Below are positions 4,461 through 30,659 of a DNA stretch of 32,893 nucleotides, piece after piece (the stretch's first letter is position 1; each line of letters opens with the position of its first letter). Source of the stretch: an uncultured Silvanigrella sp. GTDB lineage: Bacteria; Bdellovibrionota_B; Oligoflexia; Silvanigrellales; Silvanigrellaceae. Location of the stretch: positions 1 through 32,893 of the forward strand of contig CAIZJW010000181.1 in NCBI GenBank assembly GCA_903933385.1, read 5' to 3'. The notes beneath the pieces are model-generated. The model worked only from the letters and a program-made list of their open reading frames with translations, made no database searches and was not told the origin of the DNA. A program made the translations under genes and the position numbers.

Positions 4461-4557
4461 GAATCAAATGTCTGTTATTGCAAGAAAATCAACAAGGAAA
4501 AAAATTGCAGGGCTCTGACCAAATCTATTCCAGTAAACTGCAAGCGAGGTGTCTTTG

Positions 4558-6393
4558 ATGTTATTTTCCAACGGGGTTCTGACATCCGCTGTGGCGGCAA
4601 AGTTGTTCTTCTCCCCCGCTCCTCTTGTTGAAGAGACGAGCATGGCGCGTTTGCAGCCAGTGCTCGAATCATTCCCGGGTTTTTTAGATCACTCGTTTCA
4701 GTCTTCCGTGATTCAGACAGGAAGCTGGCATTGGGATGGAATTGAGCTTCATGCAAGCAAATTTAAAATTGGCTTTGAAGCGAATCGTCATGATCCGTTT
4801 TGGTTCGCTGGATTTTATCCGGCAACAGATTTGACCGCAGATGGCTTCTCTTTTTCAGCAGGGCATAGGCTAGATGCGATTCAGGCGAAGAGTTTCTTTG
4901 CTGAACACATGCGCATAGGGAGTTGGCAGATCGCCGAGCCAAAGCCTATTTTTCAAGTCGAAAATGGAGAGTTGGTGAGTTGGTGGAAGCTTCGTACGGA
5001 CCGAGGGCGTGTTTACTGGATGCGCGAATCCGACGGATTTTGGGGTGAAGAGGTGCCTTTGCCACTTCATGCAAAGGCAAAAGCTTTGCTTTACCGAGAG
5101 AACAAGGTGGCCTCTGCTGAGGCTGGGCTTGAAGAAATTCAACTTTCTGACCTCCTCGATGTTTCGTATCTTAGGAATAAGTTTTTCCGTGTGTTGAATT
5201 GTCAAGGAAGTAAGATTTCATACGAGAAGTGTGGAAATTATGCGCGTTCTGTGAGTGGATTTTACAAGTATCCCTATGAATCTTCCGAATATTCAGAGAT
5301 GGTCGGATATTACTCCATTCAACGAGCAATGGAGTGGCATCGGGGTATCCAAAGCGATACTCAGAAAACTTACTTCGAGAATTTTGCACTCAAAGGTCCA
5401 ATCGATGTGTTTGTTCGAGCCGATGCCAATAATGCTCCTTTTTATGTACCTCGAAGCTCAACACTAGAAAGTGACAACCCAGCGATAGTTGTCTCAACGG
5501 GAGCTGAAGATAATGTCACATCCGGCACTCTTTCTTTTTTAAGCAAAGATTCCGATGTTCTATTTCATGAGTTTTCTCATCACATCATTTATCGATCGGT
5601 TCAGCCCAATACTTCTGCGAGTCAGGCAAGGGTTATTCAAGAGGGGTTAGCTGATTATTTTGCTTATGCAATCACAGGGAATAATCGTCTTGGTGAAAGC
5701 ATTTATGGAGGAGAACCTCTGCGGCAGGGAAATTTGAGCAGTGCGCTCGCCTCTTCCCTGTTTAGTCCCTCTGGGAGCTGGAACCCATATAATGTTGGAG
5801 ATATTCTTAGTTCTGCATTGTGGAGCCTGCGGCAAACTTTTACTGAGTGGAAAGATGGTTACAATCAAATCGATAAAATTGTCTGGGATGCCATCGATTT
5901 GCTTCCGCCACTCGCAACAAATTATCAGTTTGCATGCGCAGTTTATGTGAGTGCGGGAAATTTTGAAAAGCAAGAGAATCTGACCACTGGTTCGCTGCGT
6001 TCACCCGTTGCAAATGAGTTTGTGAAACGTTTATTCTTCACATCAGCGACGCCCGACGCAAATGCATTATGCCCACCAATCAGTTCTATACTTCGCGATG
6101 TTGATGTTGAAGAATCCCTGGAGAGTGGCTTGCCTCTCATAGAGACTCCGAAAAATTCAGTCACATTCACTGGAGAGGGAAAACCAGCTCTTCCACCTTT
6201 CAGTGGAAGCTTGTATCAGCCAATTCAGCCACGTCGCACAGTTTGCGGCTCAGTTGCGTCGAGTCCAGCCCTTGCGAAGGGGCCGTCACTATTTTTCATC
6301 TTTGCGCCGGTTGTTATCGGATCGATGCTTCATAGATTTGCTCGATGGCGGAATCGCTTCCCGAAAAAGTCCCGCGTCGTTGAAGCCAAATGA
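4558..6393 (+). CDS. Gluzincin zinc metalloprotease with C-terminal Cys/TM/basic sorting-like tail
   Basis: The 611-residue product carries HEFSHH with His337, Glu338 and His341 as HExxH, and Glu362 in QEGLADYFAY as the likely third zinc ligand. This pattern is that of thermolysin/fungalysin-type (M4/M36-like) peptidases. The N-terminal 300 residues are unrecognised and may include a propeptide. The N-terminal hydrophobic stretch is short and lacks positive charge, so the export signal is uncertain. The tail has Cys563-Gly564-Ser565, a hydrophobic segment at about 576-591 and a basic cluster (HRFARWRNRF), the three-part layout of CTERM sorting signals. The ATG at 4558 is preferred over GTG 4549 because GAGG lies 8 bases before it. 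Its last 80 bases overlap the convergent transglutaminase gene. Confidence 0.85.
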   Translation: MLFSNGVLTSAVAAKLFFSPAPLVEETSMARLQPVLESFPGFLDHSFQSSVIQTGSWHWDGIELHASKFKIGFEANRHDPFWFAGFYPATDLTADGFSFSAGHRLDAIQAKSFFAEHMRIGSWQIAEPKPIFQVENGELVSWWKLRTDRGRVYWMRESDGFWGEEVPLPLHAKAKALLYRENKVASAEAGLEEIQLSDLLDVSYLRNKFFRVLNCQGSKISYEKCGNYARSVSGFYKYPYESSEYSEMVGYYSIQRAMEWHRGIQSDTQKTYFENFALKGPIDVFVRADANNAPFYVPRSSTLESDNPAIVVSTGAEDNVTSGTLSFLSKDSDVLFHEFSHHIIYRSVQPNTSASQARVIQEGLADYFAYAITGNNRLGESIYGGEPLRQGNLSSALASSLFSPSGSWNPYNVGDILSSALWSLRQTFTEWKDGYNQIDKIVWDAIDLLPPLATNYQFACAVYVSAGNFEKQENLTTGSLRSPVANEFVKRLFFTSATPDANALCPPISSILRDVDVEESLESGLPLIETPKNSVTFTGEGKPALPPFSGSLYQPIQPRRTVCGSVASSPALAKGPSLFFIFAPVVIGSMLHRFARWRNRFPKKSRVVEAK

Positions 6394-7474
6394 AATCTGG
6401 CCTCGCATCTTGCAACCAAACGCCCCCACGGATACGTCCTCCGGCGTCTATCTCTAGGCGGTATCTGTAGAGTGCTGAGCTCACGGCAGGGCGTTCGAGA
6501 AGTTGCCCTAGCGCATTCCACTGTGCTTCCACTTCCATCGAGTAATGCATTTCAGTTTCGATGGTGATCTCTTTTGTTGTCCCTGGTGCAGAGCCAGGCG
6601 AAGGACCTTGCCTGGCAATTTCCCTGCTCTGGAACCTATAAATGGGCTGATTCCAAACTTCGCCCATCCTTGCTACGTCGGCAACAAACCCTTCCTTCAA
6701 AATCCCAAGCTGGTTTGCAATCACGATGTGAAAGGCTCCGGCATTTGCATCTCGACAGGGCGGCGTATTCAATCCCAACGTTCCGAAGGTGTTACAGCGT
6801 GCCCCGAGGCCAACGGCAGGTGCCGAGTTACGTGTTGCCATATGCCAAGTGAGGAGAGCTTTCACGTCCGATGAACCGAACGAAACCGAAATACCATTCG
6901 CACCCTTCAGTGTCACAGGTTGTGGTTCGCGGAATTCTATTGCCGCAGGTGCCCAACCATGACACAGGCCTTCCCATGCCGCTGCTCCAGGGTATGTTCG
7001 CTTTCGTTCGGATTTTACCGTTGGAAAGTCGAAGCGGCCCGTGAAGATATCTAATTTTTCAGCCGGAGACAGTGCGGAGATCTGTTGCTGAGTCATCGAC
7101 TGAACCGATTGTCTCGAGGGCAAGCTGTAGGCAAATGGGCTGCCTGAAGGACTCAACCAGCGGTAAGCAATGCCCGCTCTTTGAGTCGACCAATAGGAAT
7201 CAGACCAAGGAATTCGATCGATCCGACCCGACATGGGTAATTTGTCGAGACGTACTTCGTATGTTCTGCCGAAGCGTGATGGCTCATTGATGACATCCCA
7301 TGCTTCGAAAACACGAGACTTTCGCTGCGTTTCATCTTCATATGAACAAGCAGAAAAACTAAAAATTGCGATCGGAATTAGAGCGGCTACGGCAAAGGAA
7401 ATTCTAGAATGTGCAGAGTCGGTCGTCAGTTTCTTGCGGAAATCCTGAGCTGCCAGAGTCGAAGGTGCTTTCAT
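6314..7474 (-). CDS. Lipoprotein of the transglutaminase-elicitor family (GP42/Pep-13 type)
   Basis: The 386-residue product has a signal sequence (about 25-42) ending in the lipobox FSAC with Cys43, so it is probably lipid-anchored. The body matches my knowledge of the Phytophthora GP42 transglutaminase family: WSDSYWS near 90-96, WEGLCHGWAPAA at 167-178, FHIV with His249, DVARMGEVWNQP ending at 277 and a C-terminal GGVWLQDARPDFIW. Cys171, His249 and Asp266 are in the Cys-His-Asp order of transglutaminases and are my inferred catalytic set. The enzyme would crosslink Gln and Lys side chains. VWNQP with Phe and Glu following matches the Pep-13 peptide pattern. GAGGGG about 10 bases before the ATG supports the start. 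A terminator for the upstream GH57 gene sits in its leader. Confidence 0.85.
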   Translation of the reverse strand: MKAPSTLAAQDFRKKLTTDSAHSRISFAVAALIPIAIFSFSACSYEDETQRKSRVFEAWDVINEPSRFGRTYEVRLDKLPMSGRIDRIPWSDSYWSTQRAGIAYRWLSPSGSPFAYSLPSRQSVQSMTQQQISALSPAEKLDIFTGRFDFPTVKSERKRTYPGAAAWEGLCHGWAPAAIEFREPQPVTLKGANGISVSFGSSDVKALLTWHMATRNSAPAVGLGARCNTFGTLGLNTPPCRDANAGAFHIVIANQLGILKEGFVADVARMGEVWNQPIYRFQSREIARQGPSPGSAPGTTKEITIETEMHYSMEVEAQWNALGQLLERPAVSSALYRYRLEIDAGGRIRGGVWLQDARPDFIWLQRRGTFSGSDSAIEQIYEASIR

Positions 7475-7490: not shown

Positions 7491-7525
7491 AAAAAAGACG
7501 TGCGGGTAAAACCCCCGCGCGTCTT
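7491..7525 (-). terminator. Rho-independent terminator of the GH57 gene
   Basis: A 12-pair stem (7495-7506 with 7514-7525, one G-T pair) encloses a 7-base loop and is followed on the minus strand by six T. The stem overlaps the GH57 stop codon and lies 17 bases upstream of the transglutaminase start, so it separates the two minus-strand genes. Confidence 0.85.
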
Positions 7526-8813
7526 AGGAAAGGCTAAGCTTAATTTCTCGACTTTCCGATGGCGTTATGTTGATTAAATGCACAGATTCAATTTCTCTTT
7601 GTTTCATTATGGTTTTCTGTGCATCGCGGCTTGCGAGGCAGACTCTTTCAAATGCTTCGACAGCGCTCCGGTGATCTAAATAGGCATCATAGGGCGAATC
7701 ATAGGGGCTAAAATATTTATGGACATCCCCATCATGGGAATACTTGATGCACATGTAGTAAAAGTGATCGCTTGTTTGCAGCTTGCGCCATTGTTCTTTC
7801 AAGACAGGTGAATTCAGCGAATTTACCAAGGGTTCAAGCGCCATAATTCTATCGAGAGCTTCCTCTTGCAGGGGGTTGCTGAGCCATGCGGAGAGATCGC
7901 GTTCGGTGTCAGCCCAGCTCGTAGGAACTGGAACAGACATTGTGCTGCGTGACTCAAAATTGAGGGCTTCTTCGACACCAACAAAATGAAGATTCGGATG
8001 AGAAACGACCCTGTGAATAAGATCTTCGAAGAAGTGGAAGATTCCTGAGTCAGCCCATTGGTGTTCACCAAAGGTTTCATAGTCCATGAAAAGTCCGATG
8101 AATTCATGCTTGCCGTCGAGCAGCGACTCAAGCCAATTGACATAGCGATCTGCTGTGAGCGGCCAACTTGCCCAGTTGCGATCCGAGAAGCGGAAAGCCA
8201 TGTCGTCGGAAAGTTTGTAGCTCTTGGGCAAAAGTCTGAGACCGCTCTGTGTTGGGTGCTTGAAAATGTGGTGTGCATTCCAGCCCTGGGGCAGCCAGGG
8301 ATCCCATCCTTCGAGAAGGCATCCTTCGAAACCGAGTTGCGACACCATTGTGCCAATCGAGTCAGAGTAGATAAGTTCCGTGTTGCGGAAAACGCGCGGA
8401 ACTTTATTGAAAAGTTCTTTCAGGGTCACAAGTTGCTCTGCCACTTGACTCCTGAATTCGCTGGGAGAACGCAGCGCAGCAAGCGAGTGGTGTGACGTCT
8501 CGCAAATGATGTGCGCATTGGGAAGGCGGCCGAGGAATGAGTACAATGCATAAAGATTTGGATCATATTCTTTGCACTGACTCAAAAAAGTGCCGCTAAA
8601 GGAAAATGAAACTCTAAAGTCGTTTGGATATTTCAGAAGCAAATGTTCGAGCAGTTTACCCATGGGCCAGTAGCATTTTTCAGCTACCTTATGAAAAACG
8701 CTTCTGTTTTTTTCGTCGCTAAACAAACTCTCTGCGGGTGCATTTTCATCGAGTCTGACTTGACGCAAACGATAGGGCTGATGAACCTGAAAATAAAAGC
8801 ACAGGGCAACCAT
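7524..8813 (-). CDS. Glycoside hydrolase family 57 (alpha-amylase / glucanotransferase-like)
   Basis: The 429-residue product begins FYFQVHQPYRLR, the first conserved GH57 region (His11-Gln-Pro). The next landmarks are GTFL near 74-77, RNTELIYSD with Glu146 as the expected nucleophile, and FMDYETFGEHQW with Asp244 as the expected acid/base. The length fits single-domain GH57 alpha-amylases. There is no signal peptide, so it should act in the cytoplasm on alpha-glucans such as glycogen or maltodextrin; the exact specificity (amylase, 4-alpha-glucanotransferase, branching) cannot be read here. GGAG lies 9 bases before the ATG. It follows the S8 protease gene by 73 bases on the same strand, and a terminator overlaps its stop codon. 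No glycogen-metabolism neighbour is present. Confidence 0.92.
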   Translation of the reverse strand: MVALCFYFQVHQPYRLRQVRLDENAPAESLFSDEKNRSVFHKVAEKCYWPMGKLLEHLLLKYPNDFRVSFSFSGTFLSQCKEYDPNLYALYSFLGRLPNAHIICETSHHSLAALRSPSEFRSQVAEQLVTLKELFNKVPRVFRNTELIYSDSIGTMVSQLGFEGCLLEGWDPWLPQGWNAHHIFKHPTQSGLRLLPKSYKLSDDMAFRFSDRNWASWPLTADRYVNWLESLLDGKHEFIGLFMDYETFGEHQWADSGIFHFFEDLIHRVVSHPNLHFVGVEEALNFESRSTMSVPVPTSWADTERDLSAWLSNPLQEEALDRIMALEPLVNSLNSPVLKEQWRKLQTSDHFYYMCIKYSHDGDVHKYFSPYDSPYDAYLDHRSAVEAFERVCLASRDAQKTIMKQREIESVHLINITPSESREIKLSLS

Positions 8814-8886: not shown

Positions 8887-10194
8887 TCATCTTGATGCTG
8901 AACTCAGGAAGGCGGACAACTTGACAGCACAATTTTCAGAAGTGTCGACCGAACGACAGGGAAGAGGTGCTTCAAGAAGCTTGCGAATATTGAGAATTCC
9001 CGCTCCGTGTTTGTCGGTGTTCCATCCGGGAGGTGTTTCCATAGCCATTTCGCGAGCCACCGCCATAAACAATTTGCTGATGTTCTTTTTACCATAGAGC
9101 TTTGCCAGCGCGCTTGAATTGTGATGCTGCAACCAAAGCGCGGCAGCCCCTGCAGAGAAGGCGGTGGAATAACTTGTACCACTCGAGCGACGAACTATGC
9201 CCTGCAATGTCATTTCTGCGCCGTTTCGAGAGAGGATTTGGCTCACTTGTTGAAGCTGTGAAAGTCGAGGCGGATTTCGTGCATTTCGATCTATACCGAA
9301 GTGGCAAACGTCTTCTCCGGGGGCTGCCCAAGATATGTTTTTGCCGCTGAAAGCTTCCTGCCAATGTCCTAGAGGGCGCGTAGATGCGGTTACGCTAATG
9401 ACGCCTGGAAGATTTGCTGGCAACGGCACAATGTCGATAGGTAACGTTTGTCCGGCTGCTGCAACTACGATAATTCCTTGTTCCAGAGCTTCATTCACAG
9501 CGGTTTTTATAAAATTCTTTTGGTCAAAGACCGCGCCAAGGCTAATTGTCATAACTTGCGCACCCAGTTTGGTTGCGAGGCGAATTCCCTCGGCAAGATT
9601 GCGCAAATCCGCTGTTCCACCCGTTGAAATGTTTCCAACCATAACAACACTGTCGGTCACTTTGATTGGTAGCAAGCGTGCCCAAGGTGCAACGCCTTTG
9701 AAACCCCAACCTGGAACATTCGTTTCTGGAAGCGAGCCAACGATCAAGCTTGCAGTCTCGGTGCCATGGCCAAAGTTCGGTGCTTTAGGATTGTTGTCGA
9801 TAGCTGGTAAGTGGGGTTGGACAAAGTTCATAATTCCCATGAATGAATTGATTTTCGGTCCCCAAAGAAGCCCGGCTGAGTATAGCCCAGAGTCAGAATT
9901 TCTCTGCAGGGCAGGGAAGGGAATAATTCCCGTATCGATGTGAGCGATGGAGATTCCATCACCGGGAAGCTCTTTTTTCGCTGCGTAAATAATTTCTTGT
10001 GCTTGCTCAATTTCCAATTGTTCCCAGGCCCAATGACAATCGTCGGACGTAAGTCGATCGCGAAAATTTGCTTCCTGAACTGCTGCGGGATTGCGAAGAT
10101 TATCGGTATGCTTTTGGTTTTGTGCAAAGCCAGGCTGTTCGGTAGTCATGAGCATTGAAATGAGACTTAAGAGCGTGACCGAATACTTCGACAT
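8887..10194 (-). CDS. Exported subtilisin-like serine protease (S8)
   Basis: The 435-residue product has a signal peptide (about 1-24, ending GFAQ) and an S8 catalytic domain. Asp87 is in IAHIDTGI, His143 in FGHGTETASLI and Ser341 in SSGTSYSTAFSAGAAAL. The oxyanion-hole position reads VVAAAGQ, so Gln249 stands where almost all subtilases have Asn; activity may be altered but the triad is intact. The short region 25-75 may be a small propeptide or linker. Late Cys residues (about 409 and 417) could form a C-terminal disulfide. GGAGGTG precedes the ATG at ideal spacing, indicating strong translation. The upstream leader holds a hairpin and a 14-base palindrome. GH57 follows after 73 bases. Confidence 0.93.
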   Translation of the reverse strand: MSKYSVTLLSLISMLMTTEQPGFAQNQKHTDNLRNPAAVQEANFRDRLTSDDCHWAWEQLEIEQAQEIIYAAKKELPGDGISIAHIDTGIIPFPALQRNSDSGLYSAGLLWGPKINSFMGIMNFVQPHLPAIDNNPKAPNFGHGTETASLIVGSLPETNVPGWGFKGVAPWARLLPIKVTDSVVMVGNISTGGTADLRNLAEGIRLATKLGAQVMTISLGAVFDQKNFIKTAVNEALEQGIIVVAAAGQTLPIDIVPLPANLPGVISVTASTRPLGHWQEAFSGKNISWAAPGEDVCHFGIDRNARNPPRLSQLQQVSQILSRNGAEMTLQGIVRRSSGTSYSTAFSAGAAALWLQHHNSSALAKLYGKKNISKLFMAVAREMAMETPPGWNTDKHGAGILNIRKLLEAPLPCRSVDTSENCAVKLSAFLSSASR

Positions 10195-11742: not shown

Positions 11743-12123
11743 TCAGTTCTCGTCAGTAGCTCTTTTTAGGAATGACCGGGCAGAAGCTAGATTTCTTCTA
11801 TCTTTGAGAACAGCGTTGAGAATATTTCCTTTGCTGTCGGTGGAACGGTACATGTATTTCCATTCTCCGTTAACTTTTACGTACGATTCTTCAACGTTGA
11901 GTCCTGTTTTTAATCCTCGTGATGCACGGCGAGGCTTTCTCGACACAACCTCCCCGAATTTCTGGACCCACTCGAAAACTGTCTTGTGTGAAACTTCTAC
12001 GCCATGTTGCATGAGTTTGTCAGAAACAGCTCGGTACGTGAGATTGTCTCTTTGGTACCAAATGACGGCCAATTCAATGACTTCCCAAGGATACCGATGT
12101 TGCTTGTCGAGTCTGTCGCTCAT
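11743..12123 (-). pseudogene. Truncated IS6-family transposase (N-terminal half only)
   Basis: The 126-residue frame begins DKQHRYPWEVIELAVIWY and includes an HTH region (about 10-55) and the segment around the first catalytic Asp of IS6/IS26-type DDE transposases. Family members normally read VDETYxKVxGxWxYLYRAVD; here it is NVEESYVKVNGEWKYMYRS, so the catalytic Asp is Glu. Full-length enzymes are about 230-240 residues; the frame stops before the second Asp and the Glu, and the missing half is not found in another frame downstream. It is therefore almost certainly inactive. The frame itself is otherwise clean and has its own terminator, so a retained DNA-binding role cannot be excluded. Confidence 0.85.
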
Positions 12124-28145: not shown

Positions 28146-30659
28146 CTACGCCGCAGAAACAGTCGTGTTCGCTTCTGGTTTCCAGGTAATGGCTACAATC
28201 GAGACATCATCATCTGGCGGATGTGATTTCCAAATATCGCGCGCGAATTTCACAAATGAATCCAAATTGACGGAGTCGAAGACGACATTGCGGCAAAACT
28301 GCAAAATCGATCGTCGTGTCATGCATTCGCCGTTTGGTCCGGTGTTTTCCAGTAGTCCGTCAGTATAGAGAACAAGTGAATCCTTAGGACTCAGGTTGAT
28401 TGTCTCTGCGCTGAAGGTTGCATTCGGATCGATACCTAAAAGTGATCCAGAGACGACCACCGATTCAGGTCGCTGGTTTGGCACAATATGAAATGGGTGT
28501 GGGTGCCCTGCACTCACGACATGGCACGAGCCTGTGTCGAGTTCGAGGCAGACAAAGAGCATCGACATGAATTTTAGTCCGCGGTTCGCATCCAGCATGA
28601 CTCGATTCACGTGCTGCGCAAGTTGTTGAACTGCTTCGGATGCTGAATCGTAATCGTCGGAGTTATACGATTCCCAGCTTTTGATAATTCCGGCTGCCAC
28701 GCCTGTCACAATTGAAGCCGCGAAATCGTGTCCGGTGACGTCTCCAATGGTCACAAAAAGACGGCGTCTTTTCTCGCTGTGATAATAGCCAAACCAGTCG
28801 CCGCCTGTTTTGCCTGCGCTGCGAGCGTATGAAGACAGAGCAACATTATCAAGGTTCAGTGAGGGAGGTAGAAGTGCGCTCTGGATCGATTCAGCTGCAT
28901 CAAGTTGAACATCCATTTGAGCCTTTTTTCTGACATCACGAAGATACTCTATGTTCTTCAGGGCAATCAGCAAGCTCGCAGAAACTGCATTGAGGAACTT
29001 TATCACCTGCTGATGCTCGTCTTGGCCGAATGAGTTTTTATCATAACGGCGAATGATGATTGCACCATCTAGGGAGTTTGTTTCCAGAGGTACAGTCAGA
29101 ACAGATTCTGGTGCAGAAGAAATGTATTCCCTAATTGCGTCAGTGTTTCGGATGACCGGAATTGAAGTCGCAGGCGTCAATTCTCTGTGTGGAACAAGTG
29201 AGTTGGGCGGTTTATCGCTGTCTGAAGCAGAGATTTCGTAAATTTCACCTTCCTCATGATTTCCCTTGTTTACATAAGTGAAGTGTACGAACTCTCCATC
29301 ACCATTATTTTTCTCCATAAAAGAGACCCGAGTGAGCATGAAATCGATGGTGAATTGATGCCCAGAAAGGCTGAGCTGCTTGCTGATCGCAGATGCAACT
29401 GCAGCGAGAGCTTCGCGGTAGTTGCGGGCTTGCGAAAGTGCATAAGTGCAGTCGAAGACTCGCTGCAGTCGATCTCTTGCCGCAATCTCTGCAAGCTCGT
29501 TCTTCCTGGAGTTCTGAAAAAGTTTTGTGAAGAACTGCCCCTGCATGGCAGTCAGGCAAAGGAAAAAGAGCAGGATGCCCACGTGAAGCATGCGGAAATT
29601 TGAATTAAAGAGCCGGATTTCGTTTGCCATCTCCCAAAGCCCACCAAGGAATAGGAAGGCGAATCCCAAGTAAAATGTTTTGGCGTATGTATGCTTGCTT
29701 AATTTTAAAAGTGAGTGGGTGAAGATTGTCGTGAAAATTGGCACGGAAAAAGCATAGAAATAGGTTAAAAATGGGAGAAGTCCGAGCGGGCTGAAGAGGA
29801 AACCTGTGAGTGAAATAGCCACAAATAAAACATTGAACCATAGAGCCGATTTTATCCAGTTATTTTCTCTGATGGAAAATATATTCGAATAGAACTTTAT
29901 AAAAAACAGCGGAGAACTAAAAAGACCAATGAGGCTGAGGTTGCCTAACAAAGCTGGATCGAGACCCAGTTGGTGTCGCAGTCGCAAACCAGCAACAAGA
30001 TAAAAAAACGCGCATGTCGAAAAAAGTGCTAGATGTAAATAGGTTCTGACGTTTCTGTAAAACAAAAATAAAAATAATCCAGAGATGCTGAGTATAGCGA
30101 GGATACTAGAAACAAAAATTGGGACGAGATCTTCTTTGAGCATCTGCAGAAGGAATTCTGAACGCTGGCCCAAAGCTATCCTTCCAACGGGCCCTATGCG
30201 TTGGTGTTCAGATTCCACACGCATGTAAAATTCGGAGCGATTTCTCTCTGGATTGAGTGTGAGGAGGTGGGGTGGAAAACCAGCATATCCTTTGTCGCCC
30301 CCAAATGCGTACAACATCTGGCCATCGCGAGAGAACACTTTGAAGCGCATAAAGACTTTTTCAAACTTCAGTGTCACGGGCTCATTATTCACACTTTGTG
30401 TTACAATTTTTAGCCAGAGTTTTTCTGTTTTGCGTGGAGATAGATTGTTTTTTTGAGAATTAAATGGTTGCCAAACCTGATTTTCATTGAGTTGTGGAGG
30501 AGTCTTGATATTTTCGTCGATAAATGAATATTCGACCTGAAGATTGTCCTGCATCTCTTGGGCCGTTGCTACAGGAAAAAAAACAGCAGGCAGACACATG
30601 ATTCCCAGAATCAGATGCCTCATAAAATATTTCAATAACTGAATCCTGCGGCTGTTCAT
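28146..30659 (-). CDS. 7TM receptor with GAF-like and SpoIIE (PP2C) phosphatase domains
   Basis: The 837-residue product has a signal peptide (about 12-33), a periplasmic beta domain (about 40-180, DISMED2-like), seven membrane helices (about 185-395), a coiled stretch, a GAF-like domain (about 410-570) and a C-terminal SpoIIE-type PP2C phosphatase (about 600-830). The phosphatase retains GGDWFGY, IGDVTGH with Asp640, LYTDGLLEN with Asp767 and PPDDDVSIV, so the metal-binding acids are present and it is probably active. Such receptors turn an external signal into dephosphorylation of an anti-sigma-antagonist or similar protein; no such partner is nearby. Its ribosome binding site lies within a hairpin (see 30664-30693). 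A second, degenerate SpoIIE protein lies upstream. Confidence 0.92.
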   Translation of the reverse strand: MNSRRIQLLKYFMRHLILGIMCLPAVFFPVATAQEMQDNLQVEYSFIDENIKTPPQLNENQVWQPFNSQKNNLSPRKTEKLWLKIVTQSVNNEPVTLKFEKVFMRFKVFSRDGQMLYAFGGDKGYAGFPPHLLTLNPERNRSEFYMRVESEHQRIGPVGRIALGQRSEFLLQMLKEDLVPIFVSSILAILSISGLFLFLFYRNVRTYLHLALFSTCAFFYLVAGLRLRHQLGLDPALLGNLSLIGLFSSPLFFIKFYSNIFSIRENNWIKSALWFNVLFVAISLTGFLFSPLGLLPFLTYFYAFSVPIFTTIFTHSLLKLSKHTYAKTFYLGFAFLFLGGLWEMANEIRLFNSNFRMLHVGILLFFLCLTAMQGQFFTKLFQNSRKNELAEIAARDRLQRVFDCTYALSQARNYREALAAVASAISKQLSLSGHQFTIDFMLTRVSFMEKNNGDGEFVHFTYVNKGNHEEGEIYEISASDSDKPPNSLVPHRELTPATSIPVIRNTDAIREYISSAPESVLTVPLETNSLDGAIIIRRYDKNSFGQDEHQQVIKFLNAVSASLLIALKNIEYLRDVRKKAQMDVQLDAAESIQSALLPPSLNLDNVALSSYARSAGKTGGDWFGYYHSEKRRRLFVTIGDVTGHDFAASIVTGVAAGIIKSWESYNSDDYDSASEAVQQLAQHVNRVMLDANRGLKFMSMLFVCLELDTGSCHVVSAGHPHPFHIVPNQRPESVVVSGSLLGIDPNATFSAETINLSPKDSLVLYTDGLLENTGPNGECMTRRSILQFCRNVVFDSVNLDSFVKFARDIWKSHPPDDDVSIVAITWKPEANTTVSAA

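Follow-up and report, generated by a model that had tools for sequence, protein, structure and literature searches.

The 386-amino acid protein encoded on the minus strand at positions 6314–7474 of the DNA analyzed here (a stretch of 32,893 nucleotides, hereafter the window) is almost certainly a member of the GP42 (PF16683) family. Its segment resembling the plant-recognized peptide Pep-13 is best read, from conservation and predicted structure, as a probable part of the catalytic machinery of this family. The protein is new and the family is already known, as Pfam contains it as PF16683. The gene, its features, and its neighbors are located in the window as follows.

4549–6393, plus strand: convergent neighbor, a possible zinc peptidase of 614 amino acids, by motif (HEFSHH...EGLADYFAY)
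6314–7474, minus strand: GP42-family (PF16683) putative transglutaminase lipoprotein of 386 amino acids, by Pfam, phmmer, AlphaFold2, and Foldseek
6620–6658, minus strand: Pep-13-like segment VWNQPIYRFQSRE, residues 273–285, from the translation of the open reading frame (ORF)
6677–6679, minus strand: putative catalytic Asp266 (FVADV), by conservation and alignment with FVADV of 3TW5
6728–6730, minus strand: putative catalytic His249 (FHIV), by conservation and alignment with FHIA of 3TW5
6755–6796, minus strand: conserved pair Cys227/Cys240, a putative disulfide, by conservation
6953–6976, minus strand: WEGLCHGW block with the putative nucleophile Cys171, by conservation and alignment with 3TW5
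7346–7474, minus strand: signal sequence and putative lipobox FSAC (Cys43, 7348–7346), by sequence, AlphaFold2 model, and a homolog
7524–8813, minus strand: GH57 family protein, upstream of the transglutaminase gene and on the same strand (PF03065, E 7.8e-52)
8887–10194, minus strand: secreted subtilase, next but one to the transglutaminase gene (PF00082, E 7.8e-24)

The ORF at 6314–7474 starts with ATG, and its product matches the PF16683 (TGase_elicitor) profile with an E-value of 1.4e-32 and 113.4 bits (cut-off 25). Residues 66–365 align with positions 7–332 of the 361-position profile. PF16683 is the single Pfam family found in this protein, which has no Pfam match to peptidase families. 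By sequence, its only relative in the PDB is GP42 of Phytophthora sojae (3TW5; phmmer E 5.8e-22), and a search of the PDB with a profile of 46 homologs likewise found 3TW5 (E 2.5e-60). An AlphaFold2 model computed from the window and related-locus sequences (mean pLDDT 84.7, pTM 0.79) has 3TW5 as its sole significant Foldseek match in the PDB (E 1.7e-21, probability 1.00, TM 0.62/0.69), and the predicted structure thus has the GP42 fold, with 24% sequence identity in the structural alignment. A first-pass annotation of this DNA, made from the sequence by eye, had assigned the protein to this family from its WEGLCHGW, FHIV, and RPDFIW blocks. All three blocks were found and align with GP42, and both the profile search and the comparison with the GP42 crystal structure uphold the assignment.

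The two proteins also share an aligned Cys-His-Asp set, C171, H249, and D266 in the window protein. Among 80 homologs having the cysteine, W167, G169, and C171 are conserved at 98.8–100%, with G169 and C171 being invariant, and H249 and D266 are each conserved at 98.7%. The catalytic set that had been proposed from the sequence is therefore conserved in 98.7–100% of these Cys-positive homologs. Asp266 sits in the strand formed by residues 263–269 of the model. The 3TW5 chain reads WFGISHAW opposite WEGLCHGW and so has Ser at the position of Cys171; this fits with GP42 having been crystallized as an inactive C-to-S mutant. C227 and C240 are each present in 97.5% of Cys-positive homologs and are missing from paralogs lacking Cys171. 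GP42 differs from the window protein in having Phe/Tyr at these two positions.

A further difference from GP42 is that the window protein is a probable lipoprotein. Residues 25–40 are hydrophobic and helical in the AlphaFold2 model, in which the rest of residues 1–57 is of low confidence, and this stretch is followed by FSAC. Judged by eye, FSAC is a plausible but not ideal lipobox (Phe at –3). The nearest homolog, 75% identical, has ATSC at this place, and other relatives also have a Cys at or near it, while some have no lipobox. The sequence thus suggests that the protein is likely a lipid-anchored envelope lipoprotein, as first annotated.

The PF16683 proteins of Silvanigrellales, Oligoflexia, and Bacteriovorax are full-length relatives having the same conserved residues as the window protein, which is 75% identical to the one at locus L005 and 31–48% identical to other full-length close relatives. 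Some of these proteins differ in lacking a lipobox or in having C-terminal extensions or lectin domains. A more distant relative is WP_233902700.1, encoded on a Vibrio owensii plasmid (L064, NZ_CP025798.1), which has PF16683 with WMGLCHGW and VWNQP along with a ricin-B lectin domain, and is 26.7% identical to the window protein. The fusion of TGase_elicitor to ricin-B lectin occurs in two distant lineages, V. owensii (L064) and Oligoflexia (L040). The metagenome-assembled genome named ‘Betaproteobacteria bacterium M_surface_10_m2_064’ (L005/G049/G061) shares the coordinates of its family matches with G049, which is listed in the window's genus; the name ‘Betaproteobacteria’ appears to be wrong.

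The Pep-13-like segment VWNQPIYRFQSRE lies in a model strand (residues 272–289) that adjoins the strand of Asp266. Its letters, residue numbers, and coordinates had been given exactly, according to the translation: the first base of residue 273 is 7474 – 3 x 272 = 6658, and the last base of residue 285 is 6620. The Pep-13 sequence that the first-pass annotation used for comparison, VWNQPVRGFKVYE, matches both the published peptide (PMC6770897) and the 3TW5 chain. The two peptides share VWNQP, the Phe, and the Glu, as had been stated, amounting to seven identities in 13 positions and including both Trp2 and Pro5 of Pep-13. The remaining six of 13 positions differ, which falls short of near-identity, and it is beyond VWNQP, F, and E that the 13-mer of GP42 departs from that of the window protein. 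When shuffled Pep-13 peptides were compared with the six frames of the window, 5–6 identities were obtained in 29 of 30 trials and seven in one, and taken as a bare 13-mer the match is marginal. However, the homology spans the whole protein (E 1.4e-32 to PF16683; E 5.8e-22 to 3TW5), which rules out a chance 13-mer match and places the resemblance to Pep-13 far beyond chance. The phmmer alignment pairs VWNQP of the window protein with VWNQP of 3TW5, at the same place. Nine of the 83 homologs in which this 13-mer is represented are nearer to Pep-13 than is the window protein, which is therefore an average member of the family in this likeness. A Silvanigrellaceae metagenome-assembled genome encodes a protein (L012:1028–2110) that reads IWNQPVRGFKSRL, with nine consecutive Pep-13 residues (WNQPVRGFK); this protein has Asn in place of Asp266.

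Conservation was assessed in 87 related ORFs, 79 of which have Cys171 and data at the motif. Asn275 is kept in 79 of these 79. The motif takes the form [VI]WN[QYHF]P in 71, IANQP in four, and VWN[QHK]A in the other four. Trp274 and Pro277 are found in 95% of Cys-positive homologs, and the fourth position of the motif, Gln in Pep-13, varies freely, being Tyr, His, or Phe. The existence of natural members with Trp-to-Ala or Pro-to-Ala substitutions indicates that the enzyme fixes other residues more strongly than the two that matter most to plants.

The segment can also be followed through loss of the nucleophile. In four Bacteriovoracaceae loci (L025–L028), a second PF16683 copy occurs in tandem directly upstream, as in L028:3860–4903 beside L028:4884–5942, and has Arg in place of Cys171. 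These Cys171-less copies have lost W274/N275 as well as C227/C240, and have kept H249 in all cases and D266 in three of four. Their closest relative is a partial copy at L021, and because it retains both Cys and VWNHP, the losses of the Cys and of the motif fell together on one lineage, probably as one evolutionary event. An AlphaFold2 model of one Cys-less copy (pLDDT 81.9) matches 3TW5 by Foldseek (E 1.8e-17). The GP42 fold is thus still predicted for a copy lacking WN, which argues that the motif is dispensable for the fold; this prediction is supporting rather than independent evidence, as the alignment behind it contained Cys-positive relatives. Since WN was lost together with the Cys while the predicted fold stayed, the segment is probably catalytic, and since a single evolutionary event is involved, this link of motif to Cys is suggestive rather than proven. 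A catalytic role is in line with published work in which GP42 cannot do without the Pep-13 region for its transglutaminase activity (PMC6770897). In these tandem pairs, the Cys-less upstream copy may be a pseudoenzyme that partners the active one.

The neighboring genes provide a context that is limited to close relatives. The 3' end of the plus-strand ORF at 4549–6393 and the transglutaminase gene overlap tail-to-tail by 80 bp, and this ORF is kept in place, overlapping convergently, in L005 and L020 (46–50% identity). Its only Pfam match is DUF2268, below the cut-off (E 0.0067), and its product, judged from the sequence, is probably secreted and belongs to a family of zinc peptidases not yet described. 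The proposal that the lipoprotein gene adjoins genes for secreted proteases thus holds in part: the subtilase is confirmed by Pfam and is syntenic in L005 and L022, whereas the product of 4549–6393 has the motif and no family above the cut-off. A terminator-like hairpin (7518–7502) lies between the GH57 and transglutaminase genes, but hairpins of this type do not occur more often here than in shuffled sequences. The order of metallopeptidase-like ORF, transglutaminase, GH57, subtilase, and response regulator was found only in the close relatives L005 and L020/L022. No partner gene is shared across genera when the flanking ORFs of 30 loci are clustered, and the tandem pair in Bacteriovoracaceae is flanked by housekeeping ORFs resembling dihydrofolate reductase (DHFR) and thymidylate synthase. 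Operon or partner genes were rejected on the ground that neighbors are kept only within the genus, and the transglutaminase-like enzyme seems to stand alone. The transglutaminase of Streptomyces is paired with an activating metalloprotease. A pairing of this kind was set aside for the window, where the 4549–6393 ORF has no confirmed family and its pairing with the transglutaminase gene is confined to the genus.

Two other genes in the window were observed. A 126-amino acid ORF at 11743–12123 (minus strand) corresponds to the N-terminal half of an IS6 transposase (118.8 bits, just under the cut-off), has equal length and the same stop in two relatives, and is under purifying selection. It has Glu at the position of the first catalytic Asp of IS6 enzymes and, with a response regulator next to it, resembles a truncated transposase that has been domesticated. 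An 837-amino acid 7TMR-DISM receptor with a SpoIIE-type phosphatase domain is encoded at 28146–30659 (minus strand).

PF16683 was found in 52 of 58 genomes of the window's phylum (34 of the 39 of good quality) and in 127 of 241 genomes of the Bacteriovorax phylum, to which the Bacteriovoracaceae genome belongs, at up to 12 places in each genome in both cases; places may outnumber genes because long members are matched in pieces. The window's own genome has four such places, probably representing three genes. Five of eight genomes of one genus in the window's family are positive, as are eight of 149 in the phylum of a Planctomycetia genome, compared with none of 14 control genomes. A review (PMC4915311), citing Reiss et al. 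2011, describes GP42 homologs as limited to oomycetes and some marine Vibrio, and the first-pass annotation had similarly placed the family outside oomycetes mainly in marine Vibrio. The distribution does not support this view, as nearly all genomes of the window's phylum and many of the Bacteriovorax phylum have the family. Within the literature searched, we found no report connecting a GP42-type transglutaminase with Bdellovibrionota, no role assigned to these bacterial enzymes, and no report of enzymatic activity for bacterial members of the family; the breadth of the GP42-type family in bacteria appears to have been previously unnoted there. Relatives of the window protein were absent from viral contigs and from PHROGs, and carriage by phage was rejected on this ground.

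In a phylogeny of 84 rows, the Vibrio plasmid protein and Silvanigrella-type proteins branch together (support 91/93), inside a clade whose other members all come from Bdellovibrionota-type genomes. The Vibrio-containing clade has support of 94/93 in a 40-row tree, in which GP42 lies outside the clade, weakly supported and at the end of a very long branch. A single clade of GP42 and Vibrio, the grouping that bears on Vibrio as donor to oomycetes, is neither rejected nor favored (p-AU 0.108). The phylogeny that had been suggested as a check therefore places Vibrio among Bdellovibrionota proteins and GP42 only weakly. Bdellovibrionota diversity is a candidate donor of the oomycete gene.

We lean toward the window protein being a Cys-His-Asp acyltransferase that is anchored to the envelope and crosslinks proteins, probably those of its own envelope. 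We infer that this papain-like enzyme of the GP42 type would be exported and held at the cell envelope by a lipid anchor, and that its Cys171 would attack a target protein at a glutamine side-chain amide to form a thioester. The thioester would be handed to a lysine amine, yielding an isopeptide crosslink. The targets would most likely be proteins of the envelope or surface of the bacterium itself. Support of catalysis by Asn275, usually along with Trp274 and Pro277, would explain why the Pep-13-like strand is kept after the strand of Asp266. The main rival, which we consider rather unlikely, has the same chemistry aimed outward, with a surface or released enzyme modifying prey bacterial, protist, or animal proteins. 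Phyla whose predatory and host-associated species are well known have expanded sets of family members (up to 12 matches per genome), and glycan-binding ricin-B lectin domains are fused to such members in Oligoflexia L040 and Vibrio L064; paralogs in such numbers and such fusions could equally represent enzymes aimed at other cells, and a secreted subtilase is encoded close by in the window. However, the window protein has a probable lipid anchor and no binding domain, no conserved attack genes were found beside its gene, and the family also occurs in Silvanigrella-type genomes (the five of eight in one genus), a group described as non-predatory (PMC11656739).

The next rival concerns the chemistry itself, and we judge it improbable that the protein is a papain-like cysteine peptidase or glutamine deamidase instead of a crosslinker. 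The GP42 core resembles the papain-like protease Mac-1/IdeS, and the Cys-His-Asp set suits hydrolysis as much as transfer, but the only characterized relative by sequence is a transglutaminase and peptidase families gave no match. A non-enzymatic envelope lipoprotein retaining the fold alone would have precedent in the Cys-less tandem paralogs, in which members without the nucleophile persist; it is highly improbable for the window protein, which retains all residues that are conserved among Cys-positive homologs, C171, H249, D266, and N275 among them. We give least credence to the VWNQP segment being a plant-recognized elicitor in a protein that meets plants. The first-pass annotation had raised a possible plant-recognized molecule, and VWNQP, Phe, and Glu do occur in Pep-13 as well, among them the Trp and Pro that matter for elicitation. 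Against this, the motif belongs to the core of the family as a whole, goes with the active-site Cys, and is constant through aquatic and marine bacteria, for which reason a plant elicitor was rejected as the main reading. The window 13-mer also departs from Pep-13 at six of 13 positions, and potato PERU alleles already discriminate among Pep-13 variants (PMC13322757). With nine homologs surpassing it in likeness to Pep-13, nothing marks the window peptide out. Members with Trp-to-Ala occur naturally, whereas the W2A Pep-13 peptide has almost no activity in potato (PMC6895089). No link of the source organism to plants was found, and plant recognition is very unlikely to be the biological role of the protein.

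For crosslinking enzymes of this kind, it is possible, and we put it forward tentatively, that they serve Bdellovibrionota-type bacteria as a multi-copy core toolkit for the envelope or for predation, and that the Vibrio and oomycete genes were taken from this diversity. If this is true, the Pep-13 epitope of plant immunity would have begun as an active-site strand of enzymes of predatory bacteria. The distribution of PF16683 corrects the idea, stated in PMC4915311, of GP42 homologs as confined to oomycetes and marine Vibrio. The conservation of the motif also provides an independent, evolutionary reason for Pep-13 being a stable target of plant immunity, namely that the peptide contains an Asn-centered core tied to the nucleophile.
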